Below, one piece after another: positions 6,422-36,598 of a stretch of 47,561 nt of DNA; the first letter of the stretch is position 1, and each line of letters starts with the position of its first letter. A program made the translations under genes and the position numbers. This stretch comes from a virus. The DNA is taken from positions 1-47,561 of IMG/VR virus record IMGVR_UViG_3300013212_000041; one strand, 5' to 3'. The notes below the pieces were generated by a model that was not told the origin of the DNA, made no database searches, and worked only from the letters and a program-made list of their open reading frames with translations.

Positions 6422-7846
6422 TTAGAGTGCGTAACGATCGCTCATTACAGCCTTCATCATAACAGCTTCTGGTGTCATACCAGCCATGTCGGCAGCCAAG
6501 ACTGACTTCATGATTGCTGGAGAGAAACCAGATACTAATGCTGTACCCTTTTCGTCGAAACGAACTGGAACGTTTTCATTAGCATTAATGTTCCAGAAAA
6601 CAACATTTGGCATGTCGTAATCTGCATCGTTGTACTTACGACGAATCATCTGGATTGCACGGTCGTCATAACCTGTGCAGCAGTTGAACTGCATGTCCGA
6701 AAGGATCAAAAGAACCTTTGGCATATCTTCGTTCTTAACACGGTTCTGTACAGAAACGCGCAGGATTTCATCAAACGCTGCATGCAGGTTTGTTGACATT
6801 TCCCAGTTAGATGTTTCCATCTTCTTTACCTTCTCCGAAAGCGAACCTGTCACAGTTACGAACTTTGGCGAAGATGAGAATGTCAGGAAGACATCCTTGA
6901 ATGGACCTGTGTTCTTGTCTGCACAGTATAGACCAAGCGATACAGCAACGTCAAGACATGAGATGTCTGACTTTGACTGATGACCACCAGCCTTACAAGT
7001 CATCGAACCAGAAACGTCGACGATTGGAAGAATCATCGCATCACCGATAAAGTTTGGCAGAGCCTTCCACTGCTCATTCGCAAGAGACGCATCGCCACGG
7101 CGAACGTTCTTAACGATGTCATATGGATAAACTGCACCGGCATTTACCTTAGCAATCTTTGGGTCGCCCTTCTTCAGAGCTTCCTTATATGCAGTGAAGG
7201 CATCTGGAGCATTCTTACCGAATGCCTTCGAATAACGAGACATAGCAAGTGATGGAACATGCGAGAAGTTAATCGCGTCAAATTCCTTTGCACACATCTG
7301 TGTCTCAACGACCTTTGTAAGCTCAACTAAGCGCTTACGGTAGTACTTTGGCGACCAGCCAAGGAATGAACGTAGTTCAAGAGCCTTTGGACCCTTACGT
7401 GGCATCCACTTCGCACAAAGACCATCACCAGCTGCAAGAGCCTCGCGAATCATATTAAACGCAGCTGCCTTAACATCAGCGTTCTCAAAGATTAGAAGGT
7501 CATCCCAACGACCGATTTCAGCCACGTTCTTTAACAAACGTGAATGTACCAGCTCATCGCGATGGTTTGTTTCAAGATACTTTAGTACCTGACGGAAGAG
7601 CTCACGCTCACCAGCACCACCACGGACGTCACGAGCCCACTGAGCAACACGAAGTGCCATCTCACGGTTCTCAGCATACGCCTTTTCGAACTGTGGTGTA
7701 ATGTTCTTACCACGGCTTGCGCCAATCTTGAAGAACAGGTCAGTTGTGTTTGATAGAGACGACTTTAGAGCCTTCATACCATTTGTAGTACGGGCTACGT
7801 TTGCAGTCGATGCGTTAACGTTTAGAACAGCGTTCTTGAATGACAT
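6422..7846 (-). CDS. rsr: TROVE-domain Ro60-like RNA-binding protein
   Basis: 474 residues from ATG 7846, preceded by GGAGTAAATAAT. The N-terminal two thirds are helical repeats with 'WARDVRGGAGERELFRQV' (70-87) and 'IGRWDDLL' (111-118), the pattern of the TROVE/DUF2828 superfamily. The C-terminal third is a vWA domain with MIDAS D277-V-S-G-S. Ro60 forms a ring that binds Y RNAs on its outer surface and the ends of misfolded RNAs in its cavity; the bacterial homologue Rsr works with PNPase in RNA quality control. A Y-type RNA (8122-8290) and a promoter (8051-8090) lie upstream. DUF2828 is the alternative family name. Confidence 0.8.
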   Translation of the reverse strand: MSFKNAVLNVNASTANVARTTNGMKALKSSLSNTTDLFFKIGASRGKNITPQFEKAYAENREMALRVAQWARDVRGGAGERELFRQVLKYLETNHRDELVHSRLLKNVAEIGRWDDLLIFENADVKAAAFNMIREALAAGDGLCAKWMPRKGPKALELRSFLGWSPKYYRKRLVELTKVVETQMCAKEFDAINFSHVPSLAMSRYSKAFGKNAPDAFTAYKEALKKGDPKIAKVNAGAVYPYDIVKNVRRGDASLANEQWKALPNFIGDAMILPIVDVSGSMTCKAGGHQSKSDISCLDVAVSLGLYCADKNTGPFKDVFLTFSSSPKFVTVTGSLSEKVKKMETSNWEMSTNLHAAFDEILRVSVQNRVKNEDMPKVLLILSDMQFNCCTGYDDRAIQMIRRKYNDADYDMPNVVFWNINANENVPVRFDEKGTALVSGFSPAIMKSVLAADMAGMTPEAVMMKAVMSDRYAL

Positions 7847-8050
7847 ATTATTTACTCCATTATTATACAGGTTAAGTAAGACGCATAGCATTGTAGCTTG
7901 CGAATCGGCAACATGAGAGCATGCTACCTCGGGTGATTAAATGCTGATATTAACCTTTAATCAACGGGATCATTTCTTTTTTAGATTAAGAGTCTAAAGT
8001 TTTGAATGATTTGCGGAACTGATCCCAATTACTCAATATTCTCAATTGTT

Positions 8051-8121: not shown

Positions 8122-8290
8122 GGGCTGTACTTTTACGCGCTCTACCACTGAGCTACACCCGCATCATGACCCAGTACCACAGCCGCCTTAAAGGGCGCCA
8201 CCGAGGTAATGAGTCATGGTGCGGGCGGCGGGATTCGAACACCGCGACCTCGACCATGTAAGGGTAAGTATTGTATGCTGTAAACAGCCC
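8122..8290 (-). ncRNA. Y RNA (YrlA type) with permuted tRNA mimic, 'Y1'
   Basis: Read on the minus strand: GGGCTGT (8290-8284) pairs with ACAGCCC (8128-8122). TTAC then pairs with GTAA, leaving a 4-base bulge (AAGT) on the 3' side; next comes AGCATACAA. Inside is a circularly permuted tRNA: T arm with loop TTCGAAT, acceptor 3' strand CGCCCGC plus ACCA, a 54-base hairpin insert (8163-8216), acceptor 5' strand GCGGGTG (7 pairs), and D arm GCTC-AGTGGTA-GAGC. The anticodon arm is replaced by the terminal stem. This is the architecture of bacterial YrlA Y RNAs, and the RNA lies upstream of the TROVE gene. Confidence 0.85.
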
Positions 8291-9934: not shown

Positions 9935-10009
9935 TGGCGCGCACTATGGGATTCGAACCCATGCTCATGATTTTAGAGATCACTGCTTTGGCCGCTAAGC
10001 TAAGCGCGC
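9935..10009 (-). tRNA. tRNA-Sup (anticodon CTA, reads amber UAG)
   Basis: 75 bases including CCA. Acceptor GCGCGCT/AGTGCGC, D arm with GG, anticodon stem GTGAT/ATCAT with loop CTCTAAA, T arm ATGGG-TTCGAAT-CCCAT, discriminator G. The loop equals that of tRNA-Trp (CTCCAAA) with C35 changed to T, as in the E. coli su7 suppressor, which is charged with Gln. The amino acid here is not decidable from sequence. Confidence 0.9.
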
Positions 10010-10020
10010 ATAATATCTAC

Positions 10021-10151
10021 AGGTTCCGCTTTTTGCGTCCGGCGCGTCTACCATTCCGCCATCTCCCGATAAATTGGCCAGGAGAGTGGGACTCGAACCC
10101 ACACATCTTTCGATACCAGTTTCCATGCGATTGTGATGCTGCAAGGAACCT
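10021..10151 (-). ncRNA. Y RNA (YrlA type) with permuted tRNA mimic, 'Y2'
   Basis: AGGTTCC (10151-10145) pairs with GGAACCT (10027-10021). TTGC pairs with GCAA, with a 3' bulge as in Y1, followed by AGCATCACAAT. The permuted tRNA has T arm GTGGG-TTCGAGT-CCCAC, acceptor 3' TCTCCTG then GCCA, a 6-base linker, acceptor 5' CGGGAGA, and a Leu-like D arm with GGTAGA. Both stems differ from Y1 by compensating changes, strong evidence for a conserved fold. It lies 11 bases upstream of the suppressor tRNA. Confidence 0.85.
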
Positions 10152-10163
10152 AAAAATTTCAAC

Positions 10164-11884: not shown

Positions 11885-12172
11885 AAAAGAGCGCTGCAAG
11901 AAACTGAAGCCGCCTTAGGGACTTGAACCCACACCAGTTACTAAAGAAGCGGCAATATGACTTCACTGGTAAATGTTTCTACGCGCATCACAGCGCTCTT
12001 TTAAGTGGTGGGATTCTGTTGCCAAGCTCCCACCGAGCTCCTGATTTCTTAAGCGGCTAGCGCGTAAGCTCCATATGCGTTGTTATCGTTTGCATTTACG
12101 TTTTGTGGCACTTTGCCAGTCGATCTGTCTCGAACGTTCCTATTTTGCACCAGTCGATCCTAGTTCATCCCC
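11885..12172 (-). ncRNA. ssrA: tmRNA, coding piece (circularly permuted ssrA)
   Basis: 5' end GGGGATGAACTAGGATCGAC matches the tmRNA signature (GGGG.TGA...GGATTCGAC). The tag frame runs from the GCA at 12093 to TAA 12049 and encodes ANDNNAYGAYALAA, an alphaproteobacteria-like degradation tag ending ALAA. Downstream are a GGTGGG/CCCACC element, a probable H-type pseudoknot (ACCAGT with ACTGGT) and a 12-bp stem AAAAGAGCGCTG/CAGCGCTCTTTT that may end the transcript. The 3' limit of the mature piece is uncertain. The acceptor strand pairs with the separate upstream piece at 12317. Confidence 0.85.
12049..12093 (-). other. tmRNA tag reading frame
   Basis: GCA (resume codon) through TAA encodes A-N-D-N-N-A-Y-G-A-Y-A-L-A-A. 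The hydrophobic C-terminus is the usual ClpXP/ClpAP degron. The ANDNN start resembles rhizobial tags, a host clue. Confidence 0.85.
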
Positions 12173-12304
12173 ATCATTAAGAAACTCAACATTAATATTG
12201 AATGTTATTGAGCCGTCCAATTCCTCTCTTACATTTGTTCTGTAGAGATTAGCTTTACCTTCCTGTTGAAGTTTAATAGCCTCAGTAATTGTAACGGTTG
12301 TCAT
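12140..12304 (-). CDS. 54-aa protein encoded in the tmRNA spacer
   Basis: ATG 12304 is preceded by AGGAAAG. The product starts 'MTTVTITEAIKLQQEG' and ends at TAG 12140. It begins 13 bases after the CCA of the tmRNA acceptor piece and overlaps the first 33 bases of the coding piece, so its last 10 codons are also tmRNA sequence. Amphipathic and beta-like; no family recognised. Processing of the tmRNA precursor would cut this message. Confidence 0.55.
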   Translation of the reverse strand: MTTVTITEAIKLQQEGKANLYRTNVREELDGSITFNINVEFLNDGDELGSTGAK

Positions 12305-12316
12305 AATCTTTCCTAA

Positions 12317-12385
12317 TGGTGGAGATGGCGGGTACTGCCCCCGCGTCCTCGGTACTTTTATTGTCTGTCGTCAACGACGGATATC
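12317..12385 (-). ncRNA. ssrA: tmRNA, acceptor piece (circularly permuted ssrA)
   Basis: Ends in CATCTCC-A-CCA; the 7 bases before the A pair with GGGGATG at 12172-12166. T arm GCGGG-GGCAGTA-CCCGC, preceded by AGTACCGAGGAC as in E. coli tmRNA (AGTACCGAGGAT). The GGCAGTA T loop is, as I recall, typical of alphaproteobacterial two-piece tmRNA. The upstream end is set roughly, at a GTCGT/ACGAC hairpin. Order acceptor, spacer, coding piece is the permuted arrangement. Confidence 0.85.
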
Positions 12386-12394
12386 TTATTTATC

Positions 12395-12781
12395 TTAGTT
12401 ATGGTCCCACCAGCTCATCGGGCTACCATTCACAAATTTTGTAAATGATACGCTTTCACTGTAGTAACCGTTTGATTCGCCATAATAGCGAACAGTTACG
12501 TAACCCTTTACAGTTGCGATATTATAGAAGGTCCAAGTACATGACTCAGTCCATTCGCTCTTTCCATTGCCTTCGCTGACTGATTCAATAGCCTGCAAGA
12601 TAGGATGCCCTACCAAGTCATTCAAATCACCAGCAATGTCTTCAATATCGACACTCTCACAACAATCCTGCTCATGATACAATACGTAAGCTTCGTCATC
12701 TGAAACAACGAAAACTAATTTATCACTATCGACCTGGTAACACTTTGTTAAAGTCTTACCGATTAAATCTTTAAATTCCAT
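12395..12781 (-). CDS. DUF7448-like protein, 128 aa
   Basis: 'LIGKTLTKCYQVDSDKLVFV', 'YHEQDCCESVDIEDIAGDL' and 'GYVTVRYYGESNGYYSE' match a conserved small family of phage and bacterial proteins (DUF7448, by memory). Function unknown. Overlaps the upstream 72-aa gene by 11 bases, in a six-gene operon running down from 14039. Confidence 0.7.
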   Translation of the reverse strand: MEFKDLIGKTLTKCYQVDSDKLVFVVSDDEAYVLYHEQDCCESVDIEDIAGDLNDLVGHPILQAIESVSEGNGKSEWTESCTWTFYNIATVKGYVTVRYYGESNGYYSESVSFTKFVNGSPMSWWDHN

Positions 12782-24396: not shown

Positions 24397-24493
24397 GGGT
24401 TGCCGTTTTTGTTGCCACCGTTGGCACTTCCCATAAATGGCGGGAAGTATTGGAATCGAACCAATCATTTTGTTTGTTTGCTGTAAACAACCC
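24397..24493 (-). ncRNA. Y RNA with permuted tRNA mimic, 'Y3'
   Basis: GGGTTGT (24493-24487) pairs with GCAACCC (24403-24397), then TTACAGCAAACAAACAAA. The first 14 bases differ from Y1 at one position. Permuted tRNA module: T arm ATTGG-TTCGATT-CCAAT, acceptor 3' ACTTCCC plus GCCA, a 5-base linker, acceptor 5' GGGAAGT (7 perfect pairs) and a short D arm GCCAACGGTGGC. The second stem seen in Y1 and Y2 is weak here. Confidence 0.8.
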
Positions 24494-29975: not shown

Positions 29976-30043
29976 CCCGTGTAGGAGTCGAACCCACGCT
30001 AACTGGGTTGGAACCAGTCGTGCTACCGTAACACTTACGAGAT
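29970..30043 (-). tRNA. tRNA-Trp (CCA)
   Basis: Acceptor ATCTCGT/ACGGGAT with GCCA, anticodon ACTGG-TTCCAAC-CCAGT, T arm GTGGG-TTCGACT-CCTAC; G73 fits Trp. Confidence 0.9.
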
Positions 30044-30132
30044 ATAAAACTGTAAGGCGTTGTTTTTTTCAGAAACTGTTCGCCATAAAACTGAAACCTG
30101 TATTATACCCAAGCAGCTTGGATGCATGCTAT

Positions 30133-30243
30133 CTATTGTCCGGCTTGCCGACATTTCGATTCTGATTTGCGAAGATATTCCATTGTTTTTGGAAACCTCT
30201 TCATGATATCTTTATAAAACTCTTTTACATTTACACGTTTCAT
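30133..30243 (-). CDS. Small basic protein, 36 aa
   Basis: 'MKRVNVKEFYKDIMKRFPKT', ends with TAG. ATG 30243 after AGGATATCGAT. Amber readthrough would add only nine residues. Confidence 0.45.
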   Translation of the reverse strand: MKRVNVKEFYKDIMKRFPKTMEYLRKSESKCRQAGQ

Positions 30244-30258
30244 ATCGATATCCTAAAC

Positions 30259-30332
30259 TGGTCGCGACGCCGGGATTTGAACCCGGGACTACAGCACCAC
30301 AAGCTGTCGTGTTACCCCTACACTACGCCGTC
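30259..30332 (-). tRNA. Second tRNA-His (GTG), imperfect acceptor
   Basis: Anticodon ACAGC-TTGTGGT-GCTGT, D arm GTGT-AGGGGTA-ACAC, T arm CCGGG-TTCAAAT-CCCGG, ACCA. In GACGGCG/CGTCGCG the first two pairs (G-G, A-C) are mismatched and G-1 is absent. May be decaying or non-standard. Confidence 0.75.
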
Positions 30333-30342
30333 TCAAAAAAGT

Positions 30343-30390
30343 GGCGTCGTATTCAGCTCAACATGCTGATTTGAACTTACTAGCGACGCC
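30343..30390 (-). terminator. Terminator-like hairpin upstream of tRNA-His
   Basis: GGCGTCG and CGACGCC (7 pairs) enclose about 34 bases, followed on the minus strand by ACTTTTTTG. The same GGCGTCG strand can instead pair with CGACGCC at 30549-30555, so it could switch. Confidence 0.5.
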
Positions 30391-30567
30391 TTTCATACTG
30401 CGCTTTGCTTGGAGTATGAAATTGGTTGGAGTAGTCTGAATAGGAGTCAATCCATGTTGCTCTTGCACAGACGAATGTAGGCTCATGAGACCCATCATTC
30501 CATGTCACCCTAGGTTATCCATTGCAGGATAACTTATCTAGCATTCGGGCGTCGTATACTCCGAAAA
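30384..30567 (-). ncRNA. Structured non-coding RNA region
   Basis: CGACGCC (30555-30549) can close with GGCGTCG (30390-30384). Inside are GTTATCC-TGCAAT-GGATAAC, GAATG/CATTC and the 9-bp TTTCATACT/AGTATGAAA. No ORF and no tRNA arms. Confidence 0.4.
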
Positions 30568-30645
30568 TGGTCGGGAATATAGGATTCGAACCTATGACCC
30601 CCTGCTCCCAAAGCAGGTGCGCTAACCAGACTGCGCTAATCCCCG
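30568..30645 (-). tRNA. tRNA-Pro (TGG)
   Basis: Acceptor CGGGGAT/ATTCCCG with ACCA (C1-G72, A73 as in Pro), anticodon CCTGC-TTTGGGA-GCAGG, T loop TTCGAAT. The 5' part overlaps the 53-aa CDS. Confidence 0.95.
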
Positions 30646-30783
30646 TAAACTGGTAATAAGATAATCAGCGACTTCATTCGCGATATCTATATCATTATGT
30701 ACAACGTTTACCAATTTAAGTTGCCCATTTTCATGTGCGACAAATATTATTTTGCCATCCTCAAATTGGTAAACAGTTGTCAT
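30622..30783 (-). CDS. Hypothetical protein ending in tRNA-Pro, 53 aa
   Basis: 'MTTVYQFEDGKIIFVAHENG'; the last eight codons and the TAG are tRNA-Pro sequence. ATG 30783 after AGAGAATTT. The N-terminal MTTV start resembles other short genes here. Confidence 0.55.
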   Translation of the reverse strand: MTTVYQFEDGKIIFVAHENGQLKLVNVVHNDIDIANEVADYLITSLRGLAQSG

Positions 30784-30796
30784 AAATTCTCTCTAA

Positions 30797-31033
30797 TTAT
30801 GCGCCAGCTGTTGGAATAATTGCTGGAGCGATTTCTTCAGTAGCGCGAACGCGGAAGTAAATTCCTAGTACACCTACCATAGCAAGAACTAGTTCGTTGA
30901 GTGTTGCAACGTCAAGGCCGAACGGAAGATCAAGACCTAGGAACTGAAGACCTGCGTAAACAGATGCAATAATACCGGTCCAAACACCGCCAGACTTCCA
31001 CCAGCCTTTTTGCTTATAGAATGGTTCTGTCAT
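30797..31033 (-). CDS. Holin-like membrane protein, 78 aa
   Basis: 'FYKQKGWWKSGGVWTGIIAS' leads into two membrane segments with a short turn ('GLDLPFGLD'), and a soluble C-terminus. The layout is common in phage holins and related small membrane proteins; lysis function is inference. AAGGAAATCCAT upstream. Confidence 0.6.
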   Translation of the reverse strand: MTEPFYKQKGWWKSGGVWTGIIASVYAGLQFLGLDLPFGLDVATLNELVLAMVGVLGIYFRVRATEEIAPAIIPTAGA

Positions 31034-31097
31034 ATGGATTTCCTTAAATAGTAGTCCGAATTGACTACCTGCTATTTAGCAAATTAAGGAATATAAA

Positions 31098-31188
31098 TGG
31101 TGCGCCCTAATGGATTTGAACCATTATCGACCCCTAATCTGGGCTCCGGGATATAAATCCGGCCGTTTTACCGTTAAACTAAAGGCGC
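31098..31188 (-). tRNA. Class II tRNA with TAT anticodon (AUA codon)
   Basis: Acceptor GCGCCTT/AGGGCGC with ACCA, D arm GTTT-AACGGTA-AAAC, stem CCGGA/CCCGG (31-39 is A-C) and loop TTTATAT giving TAT. A long variable arm CCC-AGATTA-GGG is abnormal for Ile. T arm AATGG-TTCAAAT-CCATT. The amino acid may not be Ile. Confidence 0.7.
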
Positions 31189-31195
31189 GTTAAAC

Positions 31196-31277
31196 TGGAG
31201 CCCCAGACAGGATTCGAACCTGCATTTTCAATCCAGTTACCTGACTCACCGTTCGTAGCGGCGGGGGTTACTGAGGC
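31196..31277 (-). tRNA. D-armless tRNA-Arg (ACG) with long variable arm
   Basis: Acceptor GCCTCAG/CTGGGGC then TCCA; anticodon arm CGCCG-CTACGAA-CGGTG (ACG); T arm GCAGG-TTCGAAT-CCTGT. Only 7 bases lie between acceptor and anticodon stem, so no D arm; a variable hairpin CAG-GTAA-CTG follows instead. Confidence 0.65.
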
Positions 31278-31284
31278 ATTAAAC

Positions 31285-31860
31285 TTAGTGGTTACCTAAA
31301 GCAACCTTCGTGTGCCAATCTCCACCAATCTTACGTTGGTAGAAGTGATGCTTTAACTCAGGATGTCTGACTACTTCAGGGTCATCGTGAGGAGCTTTTC
31401 GTATCTCATCATCAGGCATACGAGCTTTAACTTGGTCGTGCGTAAGAGCAAACTTCTTGACATCGCCATGAACCTTTTTATGAAAGTTAAGTGATGGTCC
31501 TGAGGTCTCTACATACGCTCTCTTATTCTTCAGGTCGTGCTTGACAATATGCGAAAGACCTCTTTTGCCTTCGTGCGTACCGTCCGTAGCAACAGCTACG
31601 CGTTTCATTGCACCATCTTTATGTTTATAAAGACCTACTGCGCGTACTTTACCTTCATGGTCCTTATGCAACTTCCATGTGTGGATGTTTTTGACCATAT
31701 CGTGATGGTCTTTGAATCCTGAACCATGGATACCACCAATCGAGTGGTAAGCCTTTTGAACCATATCATAGACATGCTTAGAATGCTTTTGTTTTTCGTC
31801 ACCATTCTCGGCGTGTAAAATACTAAAACCTTCTATGAGAAAATCGTTAAACGATTTCAT
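31285..31860 (-). CDS. Conserved phage protein with capsid-targeting-like N-terminus, 191 aa
   Basis: Starts 'MKSFNDFLIEGFSILHAENG', reminiscent of T4 internal proteins (MKTYQEFIAEA-type capsid targeting sequence). The rest is His/Lys-rich with 'WKLHKDHEGKVRAVGLYKHK'. Could be packaged and ejected with DNA (inference). Overlaps the esterase stop by 1 base. Confidence 0.55.
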   Translation of the reverse strand: MKSFNDFLIEGFSILHAENGDEKQKHSKHVYDMVQKAYHSIGGIHGSGFKDHHDMVKNIHTWKLHKDHEGKVRAVGLYKHKDGAMKRVAVATDGTHEGKRGLSHIVKHDLKNKRAYVETSGPSLNFHKKVHGDVKKFALTHDQVKARMPDDEIRKAPHDDPEVVRHPELKHHFYQRKIGGDWHTKVALGNH

Positions 31861-32408
31861 TATTGATGCTCCGGATTATTTCCGATCATCGCTTGAATCA
31901 TTTTAACAACTGGACTAAGATCTTTCAATCTATGGCCCTCATCCTTCAGCACGACTGGATTTTTATAATGTGTAGTAACTAACTTCATCGGTACAACATC
32001 ATCTTTATCACCAGCAAATGCTACCATGTGATGGCGATGATGCGACTTAACAAACTTTTCAATCTCTGCATATTCTTTGTAGAACGAAGCAGGTAGATTA
32101 TACTTTTTAAAATTCGTCGAAGGGTGTAACGAAGGGTTAATAAGAACGGTTTTGATACCGTACACAGAACCGACATAATCGGCCCAGAACCCACCTGCGC
32201 TAGAACCTACTATAACAGCATCGTGACGATTCATAAGACTCTTACCTAATGCATCCATCTGAGCTTGAGTCACTTTAGGACTCGTATCATGATGATCTGC
32301 TCTAGGACACATAAACGTTTCATTCGGAAACGCGTCCTTAATCTTATTAGCTGTTTCACTTTGTGGCGAGCTGCCCCAACCGGGTATATATACTATTAAA
32401 CTTTTCAT
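31860..32408 (-). CDS. UPF0227/YqiA-like alpha/beta hydrolase
   Basis: 182 residues. 'IVYIPGWGSSPQSETANKI' oxyanion region, nucleophile motif 'VGSSAGGFWADYVG', Asp in 'AGDKDDVV' and His in 'LKDEGHRLKD' complete a serine hydrolase triad of the YqiA/YcfP esterase type. Substrate unknown. First gene after a weak promoter. Confidence 0.75.
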   Translation of the reverse strand: MKSLIVYIPGWGSSPQSETANKIKDAFPNETFMCPRADHHDTSPKVTQAQMDALGKSLMNRHDAVIVGSSAGGFWADYVGSVYGIKTVLINPSLHPSTNFKKYNLPASFYKEYAEIEKFVKSHHRHHMVAFAGDKDDVVPMKLVTTHYKNPVVLKDEGHRLKDLSPVVKMIQAMIGNNPEHQ

Positions 32409-32445
32409 ATCTTTGTATACGCTCGTCCCGTAAAGTAATCAACTA
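32408..32445 (-). promoter_or_regulatory. Possible minus-strand promoter, weak copy
   Basis: AGTTGATTACTTTACGGGAC, then GTATACAAAGATATG; overlaps the esterase start codon. Confidence 0.4.
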
Positions 32446-32571
32446 TTAAATGTCAATCTTACCATATTTCTCGCGAGCTGCAATCACTTCAGGATCCTCT
32501 GCAGGAACGGAAAAGTAAACAACTGCAGCAATTACGGCCACAACACCTATTACAATCAAAATATCAAACAT
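32446..32571 (-). CDS. Single-span membrane protein, 41 aa
   Basis: 'MFDILIVIGVVAVIAAVVYF' then a short charged tail. ATG 32571 after AGGTAATATT. Confidence 0.5.
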   Translation of the reverse strand: MFDILIVIGVVAVIAAVVYFSVPAEDPEVIAAREKYGKIDI

Positions 32572-32598
32572 AATATTACCTTTCACTTCACATAAAAC

Positions 32599-32674
32599 TG
32601 GTTGCGGAGGACGGATTTGAACCGACGTACTTCTGGTTATGAGCCAGACGAGATAACCACTCCTCTACCCCGCG
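32599..32674 (-). tRNA. Initiator tRNA-fMet (CAT)
   Basis: CGCGGGG/CTCCGCA has the initiator C1-A72 mismatch; anticodon TCTGG-CTCATAA-CCAGA; T arm GTCGG-TTCAAAT-CCGTC; ACCA. Nearly follows E. coli fMet base by base. The three G-C pairs of the anticodon stem are reduced to two. Confidence 0.9.
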
Positions 32675-32688
32675 TCAAACTGTAATAT

Positions 32689-32767
32689 TGGAGGCAGAGG
32701 CTGGATTCGAACCAGCGATTTCCAGCTTATGAAACTGGCGAGGACGACCAGGCTCCTCTACTCCGCA
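32689..32767 (-). tRNA. Second Met-type tRNA (CAT), initiator-like
   Basis: TGCGGAG/CTCTGCC with T1-C72 mismatch, 5-bp D stem GAGGA/TCCTC as in fMet, anticodon CCAGT-TTCATAA-GCTGG, T loop TTCGAAT, TCCA. Initiator-like, but could be a decayed elongator. Confidence 0.8.
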
Positions 32768-32781
32768 CTAAACTTTAAAAC

Positions 32782-32858
32782 TGGAGCGGCCAACGAGATT
32801 CGAACTCGTACCATCAGCTTGGAAGGCTGTTATGCTAGCCGTTAAACACCATGGCCGC
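32782..32858 (-). tRNA. tRNA-Gly (TCC)
   Basis: Acceptor GCGGCCA/TGGCCGC then TCCA, anticodon CAGC-CTTCCAA-GCTG, T arm ACGAG-TTCGAAT-CTCGT. Confidence 0.95.
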
Positions 32859-32867
32859 TCATACTCT

Positions 32868-32875
32868 TATTTATA
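32868..32875 (-). promoter_or_regulatory. T4-type late promoter box inside the tRNA array
   Basis: Exact TATAAATA between tRNA-Tyr and tRNA-Gly; would transcribe tRNA-Gly, both CAT tRNAs and genes below late in infection. Confidence 0.5.
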
Positions 32876-32876
32876 C

Positions 32877-32966
32877 TGGTCCGCCGAGTAGGTAACGCTC
32901 CTACACAGACTTACTTTTACGCGGGTGATTTACAGTCACTTGAGCTCACTTATGCTCAGCCGGCGG
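32877..32966 (-). tRNA. tRNA-Tyr (GTA), unusual T loop
   Basis: Acceptor CCGCCGG/TCGGCGG with ACCA, loop CTGTAAA, class II variable arm, T arm GTAGG-AGCGTTA-CCTAC (A54 G55). Confidence 0.9.
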
Positions 32967-33138
32967 ACATTAACTTAAATTTCCAATAGAGCTTTGTAAG
33001 ACCTACTGGTTCCAATGGACATGCAGGGTGAACGTATTCACTACTACCGTCATCATATTGTACAAGAACAGTTTGATCAGGCGCACCACATCCTTCGGTC
33101 TTTTTATTACCGCAACGTTTGCACTTCCATCCAATCAT
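32956..33138 (-). CDS. Small zinc-finger protein, 60 aa
   Basis: ATG 33138 ('MIGWKCKRCGNKKTEGCG') after AGGAGTAGTT; C-x2-C plus a distal Cys/His ('YVHPACPLEP'). Its TGA stop lies in tRNA-Tyr. Upstream in-frame sequence is tRNA, not coding. Confidence 0.65.
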   Translation of the reverse strand: MIGWKCKRCGNKKTEGCGAPDQTVLVQYDDGSSEYVHPACPLEPVGLTKLYWKFKLMSAG

Positions 33139-33153
33139 AACTACTCCTAAAAA

Positions 33154-33236
33154 TGGTGGGCCTGGAGAGACTCGAACTCTCACTCCGAAGAACTGGATTC
33201 TAAGTCCAGCGCGGCTACCAATTACACCACAGGCCC
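33154..33236 (-). tRNA. tRNA-Leu (TAG)
   Basis: Acceptor GGGCCTG/CAGGCCC with ACCA, anticodon CTGGA-CTTAGAA-TCCAG, variable arm with TTCG loop, T arm GAGAG-TTCGAGT-CTCTC. Confidence 0.95.
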
Positions 33237-33239
33237 ATT

Positions 33240-33315
33240 GTGTAGGATTCACATTTACTAGCACATTGCGCGCTACCCGAAGGCTGTGTTGATACGTTTC
33301 CGTTCCTACTTCATC
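33240..33315 (-). other. Structured spacer between tRNA-Leu and tRNA-Phe
   Basis: GTAGGA and TCCTAC close a segment with CC-TTCG-GG and GCGC elements. No ORF or tRNA arms. Confidence 0.3.
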
Positions 33316-33320
33316 AAAAC

Positions 33321-33396
33321 TGGTGCACCTGGACGGGCTCGAACCGCCGACGCCCAGATCTTCAATCTGGCGCTCTACCAACTGAGCTACAAGTGC
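33321..33396 (-). tRNA. tRNA-Phe (GAA)
   Basis: Acceptor GCACTTG/CAGGTGC with ACCA, D arm GCTC-AGTTGGTA-GAGC, anticodon CCAGA-TTGAAGA-TCTGG, T loop TTCGAGC. Confidence 0.95.
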
Positions 33397-33475
33397 ATTT
33401 ACTAACATCACGTATGGTTAGTGTTAGATTCTACGTGCGTCTGGAACTAATATCCAGTAGCCTCATCCTTTAATC

Positions 33476-33550
33476 TGGTGCGCCTGCGAGGACTCGAACC
33501 CCGATAAACCGGTAATCGGCCGGTTGCCTTAGCCATTAGACGACAAGCGC
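33476..33550 (-). tRNA. tRNA-Ile (GAT) with C33
   Basis: Acceptor GCGCTTG/CAGGCGC with ACCA, anticodon ACCGG-CCGATTA-CCGGT (C33 instead of U33), T loop TTCGAGT. A second GAT tRNA besides 25855. Confidence 0.85.
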
Positions 33551-33559
33551 ATTTAAATC

Positions 33560-33633
33560 TGGTGGACCGACGGGGAATCGAACCCCGATCAGAGGCTTGC
33601 AAAGCCACTGTAATCCCGTTATACTATCAGCCC
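33560..33633 (-). tRNA. tRNA-Ala (TGC)
   Basis: GGGCTGA/TCGGTCC contains the Ala identity pair G3-U70. Loop TTTGCAA, one T-T mismatch in the anticodon stem, T loop TTCGATT, ACCA. Confidence 0.9.
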
Positions 33634-33645
33634 GGAATATGAGTG

Positions 33646-33754
33646 GCTCCCTAAGTGTACCTTGATTCTTTACGCTGCAGCGCTGAATCTTCCCAGATAG
33701 TGATTCCTGTTGCAACAGTTCTCTCTATCCCTTCACGGGTTCAGTATAGGAAGC
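33646..33754 (-). ncRNA. Structured spacer closed by GGCTTCC/GGGAGCC
   Basis: Seven pairs (one G-U) close about 95 bases containing CTGTTGCAACAG and GCGCTGCAGC palindromes. No ORF. Confidence 0.35.
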
Positions 33755-33886
33755 CTATTTTAATACTTTTATATGTGCCTCAGCATAAGCTTTACCGCCT
33801 GTTGCTTTATCGGCTAATATTGTTACTCTCCAAGTATCACCCCAAGCAGTAACAAAATCATAACTTTCAAGTTTGAACAATTTCAT
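33755..33886 (-). CDS. Hypothetical protein, 43 aa
   Basis: 'MKLFKLESYDFVTAWGDTWR', beta-like; ends with TAG. ATG 33886 after AGAGATTTAT. Confidence 0.5.
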   Translation of the reverse strand: MKLFKLESYDFVTAWGDTWRVTILADKATGGKAYAEAHIKVLK

Positions 33887-33895
33887 ATAAATCTC

Positions 33896-33971
33896 TGGTG
33901 CCGGCACGAGGAATCGAACCCCGGGCATCCACTTTACAAGAGTGGCGCTCTACCATCTGAGCTATACCGGC
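33896..33971 (-). tRNA. tRNA-Thr (TGT)
   Basis: Acceptor GCCGGTA/TGCCGGC with ACCA, D arm GCTC-AGATGGTA-GAGC, anticodon CCACT-CTTGTAA-AGTGG, T loop TTCGATT. Confidence 0.95.
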
Positions 33972-33979
33972 AAAAAACT

Positions 33980-34270
33980 TTATTCTCCGTGATACTGCCA
34001 TAAGACAGCATTGCACTTAGCATGTACTGCACCTATCGTCATTCCTGTACAGCGACAGTGATGAAGGTGAACAGGATGGTCTAAGAATCCTTTCGGAAAT
34101 AGACTCATCTTTATGCTTTTATTCTCAATATGCGCTGCTGGTTTAGATTCAATATCTGAACCGCAATGCGAACATTTCCAATCTTGTAACTTAATATATC
34201 GCTCTCTCACTGCACGTCTCTGCGCAGGTGTGAGTGTATCATACTTAGCTGGAATTGTCAATTTAGTCAT
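33980..34270 (-). CDS. HNH endonuclease
   Basis: 96 residues. 'LTPAQRRAVRERYIKLQDWK', zinc pair 'CSHCGSDI', 'HLHHCRCTGMTIGAVHAKCN' gives the HNH beta-beta-alpha core with the second zinc Cys. Free-standing mobile endonuclease inserted among tRNAs. Confidence 0.8.
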   Translation of the reverse strand: MTKLTIPAKYDTLTPAQRRAVRERYIKLQDWKCSHCGSDIESKPAAHIENKSIKMSLFPKGFLDHPVHLHHCRCTGMTIGAVHAKCNAVLWQYHGE

Positions 34271-34339
34271 AATAAATCTCTACAGGCTTGTCTTGTTGTT
34301 ATATCAAAACATTGGAATGCTGAATCAAGCCTTAAACTG

Positions 34340-34416
34340 TTTAGATGAGTATTGTCCGGAGACGTGAAGCCGTATCAAGGTGATGTTGCTCGAATTACCA
34401 GCAATACTCATCTAAA
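34340..34416 (-). ncRNA. Long-stem RNA, 15-bp terminal helix
   Basis: TTTAGATGAGTATTG (34340-34354) and its exact complement (34402-34416) enclose 47 bases with TTGCT/AGCAA. Starts right after a tRNA-like element on the minus strand. Function unknown. Confidence 0.5.
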
Positions 34417-34425
34417 AAGTCGTAA

Positions 34426-34495
34426 CCTTCGTATGGGATTTGAACCCATGTTTCCCTCTGCACGAGGGTGTCCTGCCGGGCTAGACGAACGAAGC
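34426..34495 (-). tRNA. CCA-less tRNA-like gene
   Basis: GCTTCGT/ACGAAGG (1-72 is G-G), Asp/Glu-like D arm, stem CCCT/AGGG with loop CGTGCAG (no U33) or CCCTC/GAGGG with a 5-base loop, T arm ATGGG-TTCAAAT-CCCAT. No CCA. Probably a pseudo-tRNA or mimic. Confidence 0.45.
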
Positions 34496-34577
34496 AATGA
34501 GTGTGCCATTTTGGGGTAATTACTCCCTATCCACACACTCATTGGGACCTTAAGGCCGGGTAATTACTCCGAACCTT
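34495..34577 (-). repeat. Two hairpins with the same palindromic loop GTAATTAC
   Basis: Hairpin 1: CAATGAGTGTG/CACACTCATTG (11 bp). Hairpin 2: AAGG.CGG/CCG.CCTT (34552-34577). Both present GGGTAATTACTCC, whose 8-base core is self-complementary. Confidence 0.6.
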
Positions 34578-34592
34578 AATGCTTTATCTACT

Positions 34593-34691
34593 GGAACGTT
34601 TGTTTTGGACGGGAATTGAACCCGCACTGTCTGATTAGAAGTCAGATGCTCTACCGTTGAGCGACCATAAGGTTTTTTGCTGAACCGTTCC
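34593..34691 (-). ncRNA. Y-like RNA enclosing a CCA-less tRNA-Arg (TCT) cloverleaf, 'Y5'
   Basis: GGAACG (34691-34686) pairs with CGTTCC (34598-34593), followed by GTTCAGCAAAAAACC, the Y-family motif. Inside is an unpermuted cloverleaf (34601-34671): D arm GCTC-AACGGTA-GAGC, anticodon TCTGA-CTTCTAA-TCAGA (TCT), T arm GCGGG-TTCAATT-CCCGT. Its acceptor TTATGG/CCAAAA has a mismatch and no CCA. It may instead be a true tRNA-Arg whose CCA is added after processing. Confidence 0.6.
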
Positions 34692-34706
34692 AAAATCGTA
34701 TTCTAC

Positions 34707-34771
34707 AGAGTTGCTTTTGTCCGCTAAGACATCCATTGTTTAAGCGTTTTGTGTTTTGCTGTAACAACTCT
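34707..34771 (-). ncRNA. Minimal Y-like RNA, 'Y4'
   Basis: 65 bases: AGAGTTG (34771-34765) pairs with CAACTCT (34713-34707). TTACAGCAAAACACAAA is almost identical to Y3. The loop has only a CGCT/AGCG hairpin and no tRNA module. Confidence 0.65.
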
Positions 34772-34835
34772 AAAACTGTGACCGTGCTGCATCCGGCGAT
34801 TAAACCTTTGCTTTGCCGGCGGTCTTCGGCTAAAA

Positions 34836-34912
34836 TGGCGACCTCGAAGGGACTCGAACCCTCAACATCTTCCTGGACAGGGAAGCGCTCTAGCCAATTG
34901 AACTACGAGGCC
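34836..34912 (-). tRNA. tRNA-Asp (GTC)
   Basis: Acceptor GGCCTCG/CGAGGTC with GCCA, anticodon CTTCC-CTGTCCA-GGAAG, T arm GAGGG-TTCGAGT-CCCTT; G73 fits Asp. Confidence 0.95.
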
Positions 34913-34919
34913 ATGAAAC

Positions 34920-34984
34920 TGGTCCCTACCGGATGGGGGCTCTTACGCTGTAAGACCCACGCTTGAATCTAGGCTCCAGTAGGG
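34920..34984 (-). tRNA. tRNA-like minigene with long central hairpin
   Basis: CCCTACT/GGTAGGG with ACCA forms an acceptor, but the 47-base interior is mostly one hairpin GGG.TCTTAC-AGC-GTAAGA.CCC. No T or D arm. Could be charged or CCA-processed but not decode normally. Confidence 0.35.
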
Positions 34985-35126
34985 CTGACCTAGACGTGCT
35001 TTCTCGCAGCCGCTCTCATCGATACCGAGCATCGCGATAGTAACTGTGACGGTATACTTATTTGGTATCCTCCAAGGGCTGCCGCCAGCCAAATCAGGAA
35101 TGGTTTAATAACCATTAAAATTATAG
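34985..35126 (-). other. Non-coding spacer, structured
   Basis: No ORF. CTAGGTC/GACCTAG-type and CGATGCTCGG/ATCG elements are possible. Nothing identifiable. Confidence 0.25.
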
Positions 35127-35217
35127 GGGGACAGTAAGGATTCGAACCTTATCAACCCAGCTGTCACTGGTGTACTAAGCTGACAGACTTAGTACTGCTG
35201 AGCCCATGCCCATCCCC
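35127..35217 (-). ncRNA. Pseudoknotted tRNA-like RNA
   Basis: GGGGATG/TGTCCCC closes the element; T arm TAAGG-TTCGAAT-CCTTA is perfect. The centre has GTACTAAG-TCTGTCAG-CTTAGTAC, whose loop CTGTCA pairs with the downstream TGACAG (H-type pseudoknot). No CCA and no anticodon. Confidence 0.5.
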
Positions 35218-35230
35218 GGTTTCTGCCGGC

Positions 35231-35752
35231 TTACCGTGTGTTGCACGCGCGGAGTAACTCTATGATATCTGCATCTGACATTTCGTCAAGATCAATAGGA
35301 GACTGAAAGCCTCTACCAACGATACTAACCAAATGCTTACCTGCATCATCATTGTCGCCAATTGCGATTATGTTCCAAGTCTGGCGCATAATCTTAAACC
35401 ATGGCTTCATTCGCTTTGGTGTAGAAGTTAACACCGCAATCGCATTATATCCTAATCGATGTAATACAGCTGCTTTGAAGATACCTTCTACAACATAGAT
35501 AGTTCTATCAGCAGGATTCAAAATTTCCAGACCGAATACACCATCTTTTTCCCTCAAGCGAGAAAAATAACGAGACAACTTTGGGTTGTTAGTCTTTTTA
35601 CTCGTCTTATCAGGACGATAACGCTGATAACCAACCATCTCTCCAGAAAGGTTCCAGAGGTAGAATGTGATACAGTTCGAAGAATAATTCCTTGCGAAAT
35701 TATAAAGCTTCGGGTTCATACCACGTTCTTCAAGATGCTTAATTAACTTCAT
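35231..35752 (-). CDS. Toprim-domain primase-like protein
   Basis: 173 residues. 'RTIYVVEGIFKAAVLHRLGY' (catalytic Glu) and 'IIAIGDNDDAGKH' (DxD) define a Toprim domain after a short N-terminal region similar to DnaG-like bifunctional proteins. No zinc finger or helicase domain. ATG 35752 lies at the expected transcription start of the upstream promoter, so the mRNA may be leaderless, or translation starts at ATG 35719 ('MNPKLYNFARN'). Confidence 0.8.
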   Translation of the reverse strand: MKLIKHLEERGMNPKLYNFARNYSSNCITFYLWNLSGEMVGYQRYRPDKTSKKTNNPKLSRYFSRLREKDGVFGLEILNPADRTIYVVEGIFKAAVLHRLGYNAIAVLTSTPKRMKPWFKIMRQTWNIIAIGDNDDAGKHLVSIVGRGFQSPIDLDEMSDADIIELLRACNTR

Positions 35753-35788
35753 ATCTTCTTATAGGCACATTTAAGATTAAATGCAACT
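35751..35788 (-). promoter_or_regulatory. Minus-strand promoter
   Basis: AGTTGCATTTAATCTTAAAT, then CCTATAAGAAGATATG. The -10 region runs into the Toprim ATG. Confidence 0.65.
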
Positions 35789-35795
35789 ATTAAAT

Positions 35796-35872
35796 TGGTC
35801 TAGGTGGAGGGACTTGAACCCCCATGATGTCCTGGCTCCAGACCAGACGACTTACCATTAGTCCACACCTAG
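35796..35872 (-). tRNA. tRNA-Pro (TGG) with C33
   Basis: Acceptor CTAGGTG/CACCTAG with ACCA (C1-G72, A73), anticodon TCTGG-TCTGGAG-CCAGG; reading TGG puts C at position 33. T arm GGGGG-TTCAAGT-CCCTC. Confidence 0.8.
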
Positions 35873-35877
35873 TTAAA

Positions 35878-36001
35878 TCTCTTTAAGAAAATGCACGCCA
35901 AACAGTACTTGTTCAGTACCTAGGAATTCCAGCCCTCAAGAGTGTATCAGTCACTCCCTATGCCACCCGTGCTGATGCTTGGATGCATTTACTTAAAGAG
36001 A
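35878..36001 (-). ncRNA. Long-stem RNA LS1
   Basis: TCTCTTTAAG.AAATGCA (35878-35895) pairs with its complement 35984-36001 (17 pairs, one A-A mismatch), enclosing about 88 bases with AGTACT and CCTAGG elements. Shares its upstream strand with LS2. Confidence 0.6.
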
Positions 36002-36140
36002 CTTTTTAGTAAAGCGTACTGCCTTGCCGACTATATCACAATTGTACACGGAGCCTCGGAGTTCAACCGTCACGCGGGACTTACACCCCACTGCTAAGCA
36101 CTAGCTTCACCGCACAATACGCTTTACTAAAAAGTCTCTT
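35996..36140 (-). ncRNA. Long-stem RNA LS2, perfect 23-bp terminal helix
   Basis: The 23-base segment 35996-36018 is perfectly complementary to 36118-36140. The 99-base loop contains CGG-TTGAACT-CCG (T-arm-like) and GGGG...CCC. It is close downstream of promoter 36229-36265. AAGAGA (35996-36001) belongs to both LS1 and LS2 stems. Confidence 0.65.
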
Positions 36141-36149
36141 ATGGCGGGA

Positions 36150-36180
36150 GCTCCGAAGAACGTCCCGCCATTAAGATCTC
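36150..36180 (-). terminator. Strong GC hairpin
   Basis: GGCGGGA/TCCCGCC (7 bp) with an extended GC/GC closing pair and an AAGAA-type loop, near the start of the 36.2-kb ncRNA transcript. No clear U tract; may be a leader or stability hairpin. Confidence 0.4.
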
Positions 36181-36228
36181 TATCTAACAATGTCAAAGAG
36201 CGAGTTTCAGATTTCTCATCCACCCTAT

Positions 36229-36265
36229 CCCTTCTTATAGACACATTTTAAATTAAATGCAACTG
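36229..36265 (-). promoter_or_regulatory. Minus-strand promoter of the ncRNA/tRNA transcript
   Basis: AGTTGCATTTAATTTAAAAT, then GTCTATAAGAAGGGATAG. First product would be LS2, LS1 and tRNA-Pro. Confidence 0.65.
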
Positions 36266-36330
36266 TAAAAAGAAATTATTTTTCCCATTTCTGAGAAAAG
36301 TATAAGGCCGCATTACTGCCGCCCTATAGA

Positions 36331-36366
36331 TTAATATATAGCTTTATTTACGAGATAAAGCAACTG
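36331..36366 (-). promoter_or_regulatory. Second promoter-like copy upstream of the ncRNA region
   Basis: AGTTGCTTTATCTCGTAAAT, then GCTATATATTAATC, 100 bases above the previous promoter. Confidence 0.5.
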
Positions 36367-36394
36367 ATTTTTTAAAAAAAGTTATAATATTATT

Positions 36395-36598
36395 TTATAG
36401 GTGGAATATTTCTCCACTTTCGCTAATTATTACCAAAGCTTTTTCTCCATCATCACCACATACGCATTTCGCGAGTGTGTAAGCTTCATCTTCGTCCCTC
36501 GTCGTAAACGTAAGGAAGAATAAACTGTCCTTCTCTCCCGGTTCTGGGTATCCGAAGGCGCATGGGATGGCATAAAGCACTTTGGTTTTTTGTTCCAT
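36395..36598 (-). CDS. Hypothetical protein, 67 aa
   Basis: 'MEQKTKVLYAIPCAFGYPEP' and 'AYTLAKCVCGDDGEKALVII'; small alpha/beta protein. Follows NAMPT; a TATAAATA box is 5 bases before its ATG. Confidence 0.6.
   Translation of the reverse strand: MEQKTKVLYAIPCAFGYPEPGEKDSLFFLTFTTRDEDEAYTLAKCVCGDDGEKALVIISESGEIFHL

Follow-up and report, generated by a model that had tools for sequence, protein, structure and literature searches.

Comparison with known Y RNAs

The closest described relatives are the bacterial Y RNAs, including YrlA (RF02553). These RNAs are closed by a stem, are linked to Ro proteins and contain tRNA-like D and T arms with no free CCA end. The tRNA-like part of YrlA is permuted and runs from the T arm through a looped acceptor to the D arm, the stem for Ro is on the anticodon side and the anticodon end is hidden; the YrlA features compared here are largely from Rfam and reviews. 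YrlA has been proposed to be a competitive inhibitor of an anticodon nuclease (PMC7790460). In Deinococcus the Y RNA docks PNPase onto Ro (PMC8394870, PMC7790460), and the D. radiodurans Y RNA-Rsr-PNPase complex (RYPER) is, by the literature, a Ro protein with an RNA that has an effector module. The rtcBA repair operons of some bacteria include the genes for Rsr and Y RNA (PMC7790460). Another related system is formed by phage tRNAs that weaken tRNA-targeting defences (PMC10264068, PMC11555353), where the phage provides, or is proposed to provide, functional and nuclease-insensitive tRNAs.

The element described here is at 34591-34693(-) of the window, by which we mean the whole 47,561-nucleotide viral sequence that was analysed (IMG/VR record IMGVR_UViG_3300013212_000041). 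It shares the closing stem, the Ro linkage, the D and T arms and the lack of a free CCA with the Y RNAs. It differs from YrlA in that its tRNA is in the normal order and is hung by the acceptor with the anticodon loop exposed, so that the permuted order with a Ro stem on the anticodon side is absent. The YrlA model of Rfam has no match over positions 30000-36500 at E-values up to 5. The element is like RYPER in combining a Ro protein with an RNA carrying an effector module, but the PNPase link belongs to RYPER and the payload here is a full tRNA shape. Like the defence-blunting tRNAs it is a phage RNA that may meet anticodon nucleases, but the end that charging requires is missing from it. The open-access literature searched contains no description of a Y RNA that is straight and bears an anticodon; this is weak evidence, as key YrlA papers are outside that coverage, that the element is a previously undescribed form among phage and bacterial Y RNAs.

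Structure of the element

The first-pass annotation had proposed a whole tRNA-Arg (TCT) cloverleaf at this locus, enclosed by a GGAACG/CGTTCC stem with a Y motif and lacking CCA. ARAGORN and Rfam both identify 34601-34671(-) as tRNA-Arg(UCU), with a score of 61.1 bits, and the enclosing stem lengthens to eight pairs, formed by 34686-34693 with 34591-34598. The motif CAGCAA (34677-34682(-)) lies three nucleotides inside this outer stem. On the minus strand, from 34693 to 34591, the order is UUGGAACG-GUU-CAGCAAAAAACC-[tRNA-like]-AAACAAA-CGUUCCAG. The whole element scores 106.6 bits with R1, the covariance model for elements of the straight type. Its predicted fold has an energy of -28.3 kcal/mol (z -2.9), which was equalled by none of 200 shuffled sequences.

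Within the cloverleaf the arms follow in the order D, anticodon and T, with the outer stem on the acceptor side. These three arms are perfectly or nearly perfectly paired, and the anticodon UCU lies in the loop CUUCUAA. The acceptor is CUUAUGG/CCAAAAC, mismatches at 1-72 and 4-69 leave about three contiguous pairs where a canonical tRNA-Arg has a stem of seven. CCA is not encoded, in agreement with the first-pass annotation's remark that the locus is exceptional in this respect: 33 of the 35 tRNAs found by ARAGORN in the window encode CCA, the two exceptions being this cloverleaf and its neighbour at 34425-34491(-). The D-loop also lacks A20, which by the E. coli rule we take to be an identity base of tRNA-Arg.

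The neighbouring CCA-less tRNA-like sequence is called as tRNA-Ala and looks derived from tRNA-Glu. Its CUUCGU/ACGAAG acceptor and GUUACGAC tail are conserved, its anticodon arm is highly variable, and about nine other viral contigs have it as well. Between it and the Arg element are two hairpins (34490-34585(-)) tipped with GGAGTAATTA(A)CC, these are conserved in comparison sequences L009, L014 and L016 and partly in L117. A type II tRNA-like shape with a T arm and no CCA, missed by ARAGORN and seen by eye, is present at 35120-35212(-).

Homologues of the straight form

The first-pass annotation had advised looking for the same arrangement in relatives. Of 79 other records, 27 have an R1 match of at least 68 bits, and the next best score is 55; the records compared are fragments. 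The non-coding block is also present, with substitutions, in relatives that have the neighbouring NAMPT gene, and two of these carry the anticodon UCA. Other relatives with the NAMPT gene have a circularly permuted tRNA at the same place, within a similar stem.

A pattern of CAGCAA followed by a D arm gave 28 distinct matches in viral contigs, of which 23 are enclosed by a stem of at least six Watson-Crick pairs. A similar, slightly stricter pattern gave seven matches in bacterial and archaeal genomes totalling 257 Gb, all of them ordinary tRNAs or unrelated sequence, and none had a seven-pair stem around a cloverleaf. The straight form therefore looks phage-borne within the collections searched. 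No straight-type element scored above 60 bits with R1 in 13 cultured phages, 12 of which were chosen for their Ro gene, and phiM12 has only a divergent analogue. An exact 36-nucleotide query from the anticodon and T arms of the element had zero matches in viral contigs. The matches from a distant DNA search of cultured phages were rejected, as they reflected ordinary tRNA similarity only.

The structure is maintained among 26 aligned homologues. Paired cells make up 94% of the alignment positions expected to pair, compared to 74% after shuffling, double changes are found at 19 of 25 pairs (11.9 shuffled), and covariation is 0.50 (0.14 shuffled). The straight structure is thus not due to chance; as the homologues are related to one another and were partly found by pattern, the p-values in this work are optimistic. 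Double changes affect seven of the eight outer stem pairs, all five anticodon stem pairs and four of the five T stem pairs; the D stem is fixed by the search pattern, so selection on it cannot be judged. Covariation is strong in the outer, anticodon and T stems. The acceptor of the homologues has a median of three contiguous pairs. CAGCAA is invariant in all 26, this is partly set by the search pattern, and the motif is also present in elements found without it.

Other Y modules in the window

The outer stem and motif belong to an RNA module of the form stem-NNN-CAGCA...stem-UG, of which the window has about seven copies, every one on the minus strand. As automatic stem scanning gives an appreciable number of chance matches (37 in the reversed window), copies were accepted only if they had CAGCA, the spacing, a non-coding position and the tail. 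Next to the Arg element is a hairpin type with an ACGCU...AGCG payload (34706-34772(-)); its core 17-mer is common to 31 IMG/VR stretches, mostly within this module. A short module is found at 34284-34332(-) and a further one at 7869-7956(-), immediately before the point where the Ro gene probably starts.

Three modules contain permuted tRNAs. The one at 24397-24493(-) has the YrlA-like order of T arm, acceptor closed by a GCCA loop and D arm, and has no anticodon arm; a permissive Rfam scan of it gave no YrlA match. The module at 10020-10152(-) also has GCCA in its acceptor-closing loop. The third, at 8122-8290(-), was read from the sequence and has a long acceptor-closing loop with ACCA, it is close upstream of the Ro gene. 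Permuted relatives score 23-44 bits against the YrlA model, below its gathering score of 69 bits, and sub-threshold YrlA matches lie inside the Y module in L116 (two), L108 and L127.

The N73-CCA in the acceptor-closing loops of the three permuted modules in the window is like that of permuted tmRNA precursors, and permuted Y modules with such a loop are also present in L002, L116, L127, L137 and L147. The window itself encodes a permuted (alpha-type) tmRNA at 11958-12416(-) with the tag ANDNNAYGAYALAA, which suggests a host with a two-piece tmRNA. A tRNA with the amber suppressor-like anticodon CTA and an encoded CCA is found at 9935-10009(-).

Genomic association with Ro-like proteins

The window encodes a Ro-like protein of 489 amino acids (6422-7891(-), probable true start M16 at about 7846), which contains DUF2828 and DUF7788/vWA. 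Pfam TROVE (PF05731) has no match in the window, the protein falling in DUF2828/DUF7788, and a sequence profile search of solved structures with the protein found no match. The top three PDB matches of its structural model by Foldseek are TROVE (9kop), Deinococcus Rsr (2nvo) and human Ro60 (9nen). With a pLDDT of 68.7 and TM-scores of 0.34-0.54, the model gives moderate support for a Ro60 fold, a helical-repeat ring with a vWA domain.

DUF2828 is present in 21 of the 27 records with an R1 match and in 11 of the 52 without one (p 1.9e-6). Six R1-positive records, two of them longer than 100 kb, have no DUF2828, all of these may be fragments. In the 22 element-Ro pairs both are always on the same strand, and 14 are within 2 kb of each other (combined p 2e-7). 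In the window the Arg element is 26.7 kb from the Ro gene, and two other Y modules are directly upstream of that gene.

The module is also found near Ro in cultured phages. Up to a distance of 1.5 kb from the Ro gene, 17 cultured Ro phages have 33 modules on the strand of Ro, compared to 3.5 in reversed controls and three on the opposite strand, and at least one such module is present in 11 of these phages. Listeria phage AG20 has three copies immediately upstream of Ro. The related phage CKA15 has three regions of high transcription upstream of its Ro-like gene, at less than 2 kb from it, which have been proposed to be Y RNAs, and the Ro-like protein was detected in purified particles (PMC12282133). 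Linkage to Ro genes and a stem module common to the RNAs that flank them support placing the element in the wider Y RNA class.

Two further phages have tRNAs whose anticodon arm contains a Y-like insert (L128 6869-7111, Cronobacter phage S13, and L129 6870-7098, Citrobacter phage Ci1). These are just downstream of Ro and most end in CCA.

The anticodon arm

The anticodon stem is fully paired (5/5) in 24 of the 27 elements, U33 is present in 24 and A37 in 26, and there are 13 distinct sequences for the 5' side of the stem. The anticodons are UCA (7), UCU (7), UCC (3) and ten others, which include CUU. UCN is found in 17 of the 27 elements, compared to 38 of 679 ordinary CCA tRNAs from the same loci (p 5e-14), and in 12 of the 22 distinct anticodon arms. 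The element displays, as a decoy for an anticodon nuclease should, a conserved and exposed anticodon stem-loop.

Hairpins like anticodon stem-loops also occur in 17 T-less modules, compared to 0.56 expected from shuffling; a few of the 17 represent other arms, and 14 were distinct on a later count. Their loops include CUGUUAA, CUUGUAA and CUUUUAA. Modules with a bare anticodon stem-loop adjoin Ro in L224 (2634-2710) and L125 (7837-7897), both Lys UUU, and in L191 (3814-3877), Ile GAU. The kept arm, the UCN bias and the modules that carry just an anticodon stem-loop make it more likely that the anticodon loop is what is recognised, and hence favour a role as bait or in docking.

Possible functions of the element

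We propose, with a probability of roughly 0.6, that the element is a Y RNA whose outer stem is held by a Ro-like protein and whose tRNA mimic presents its anticodon loop to a tRNA-recognising protein. The outer stem and the CAGCAA motif would form the handle gripped by the phage Ro-like (DUF2828) protein. The payload would be a tRNA mimic on a shortened acceptor, with the elbow and the anticodon loop facing outwards. As CCA is absent and there are only about three acceptor pairs, the element would not be matured to a tRNA and would remain a Y RNA; charging is unlikely with neither a CCA end nor a proper acceptor. A tRNA-recognising protein, quite possibly a host anticodon nuclease, would then bind the Ro RNP rather than the working tRNAs.

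The first-pass annotation is partly supported by these results. Its suggestion of a tRNA carried on Ro has good support from the genomic context, that is the shared module, the co-occurrence, strand and closeness of the genes and the Ro-fold protein, from which we infer binding to Ro. Its other suggestion, a decoy with an intact anticodon, fits the kept anticodon arm, the anticodon bias and the modules with only an anticodon stem-loop, but the docking of a tRNA-binding effector fits much of the same evidence. A broader idea is that the Ro particles of phages serve to display anticodon loops, and that their Y RNAs, bearing whole tRNAs or bare stem-loops, UCN foremost, soak up host anticodon nucleases and offer no working tRNA. 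We regard this as tentative, and the analysis identified no anticodon nuclease that prefers UCN. Acting as an anticodon decoy cannot be a function common to all modules of the family, because in many the anticodon end is hidden by permutation or there is no tRNA part.

The docking explanation is the strongest rival, a possibility that we hold to be real if rather doubtful. Here the tRNA mimic tethers a tRNA-binding effector, PNPase or a tRNA enzyme, onto Ro, and the anticodon arm is kept for a grip on the whole L-shape. Such tethering is a known role of Y RNA (PMC8394870, PMC7790460), and what the straight and permuted types share is the D and T arms, but tethering alone leaves unexplained both the UCN bias and the modules with only an anticodon stem-loop.

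A role in RNA repair, in which Ro and the Y-tRNA hand cleaved tRNAs to a ligase, is less favoured than bait or docking and seems very unlikely. It would recall the bacterial rtcBA operons that contain rsr and Y RNA genes (PMC7790460), and downstream of Ro in Listeria phage AG20 there is a tRNA-splicing ligase. However, RtcB is found in none of 31 Y/Ro records compared to 4 of 22 control phages, and RNA_ligase (PF09414) in 1 of 31 compared to 13 of 22, in a comparison limited to these two families, where the Y/Ro records may be fragments and the controls are longer contigs picked by a shared gene. It is equally improbable that this is a working or near-working tRNA-Arg(UCU) gene with CCA added after processing and an incidental outer stem: the cloverleaf scores well and is the only Arg tRNA found in the fragment, but the acceptor is mismatched here and about 3 bp long in homologues, homologue anticodons shift (UCA, UCC, CUU and others) while the outer stem covaries, nearly all tRNAs here encode CCA and the presumed identity base A20 is missing.

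The preferred reading, a Y RNA presenting a tRNA mimic, bears on the wider family. The YrlA mimic has been proposed to inhibit an anticodon nuclease and has no exposed anticodon; a recurrent Y RNA with a complete, variable and selected anticodon arm makes this question testable. Some annotated phage 'tRNAs', this tRNA-Arg included, may not be tRNAs.
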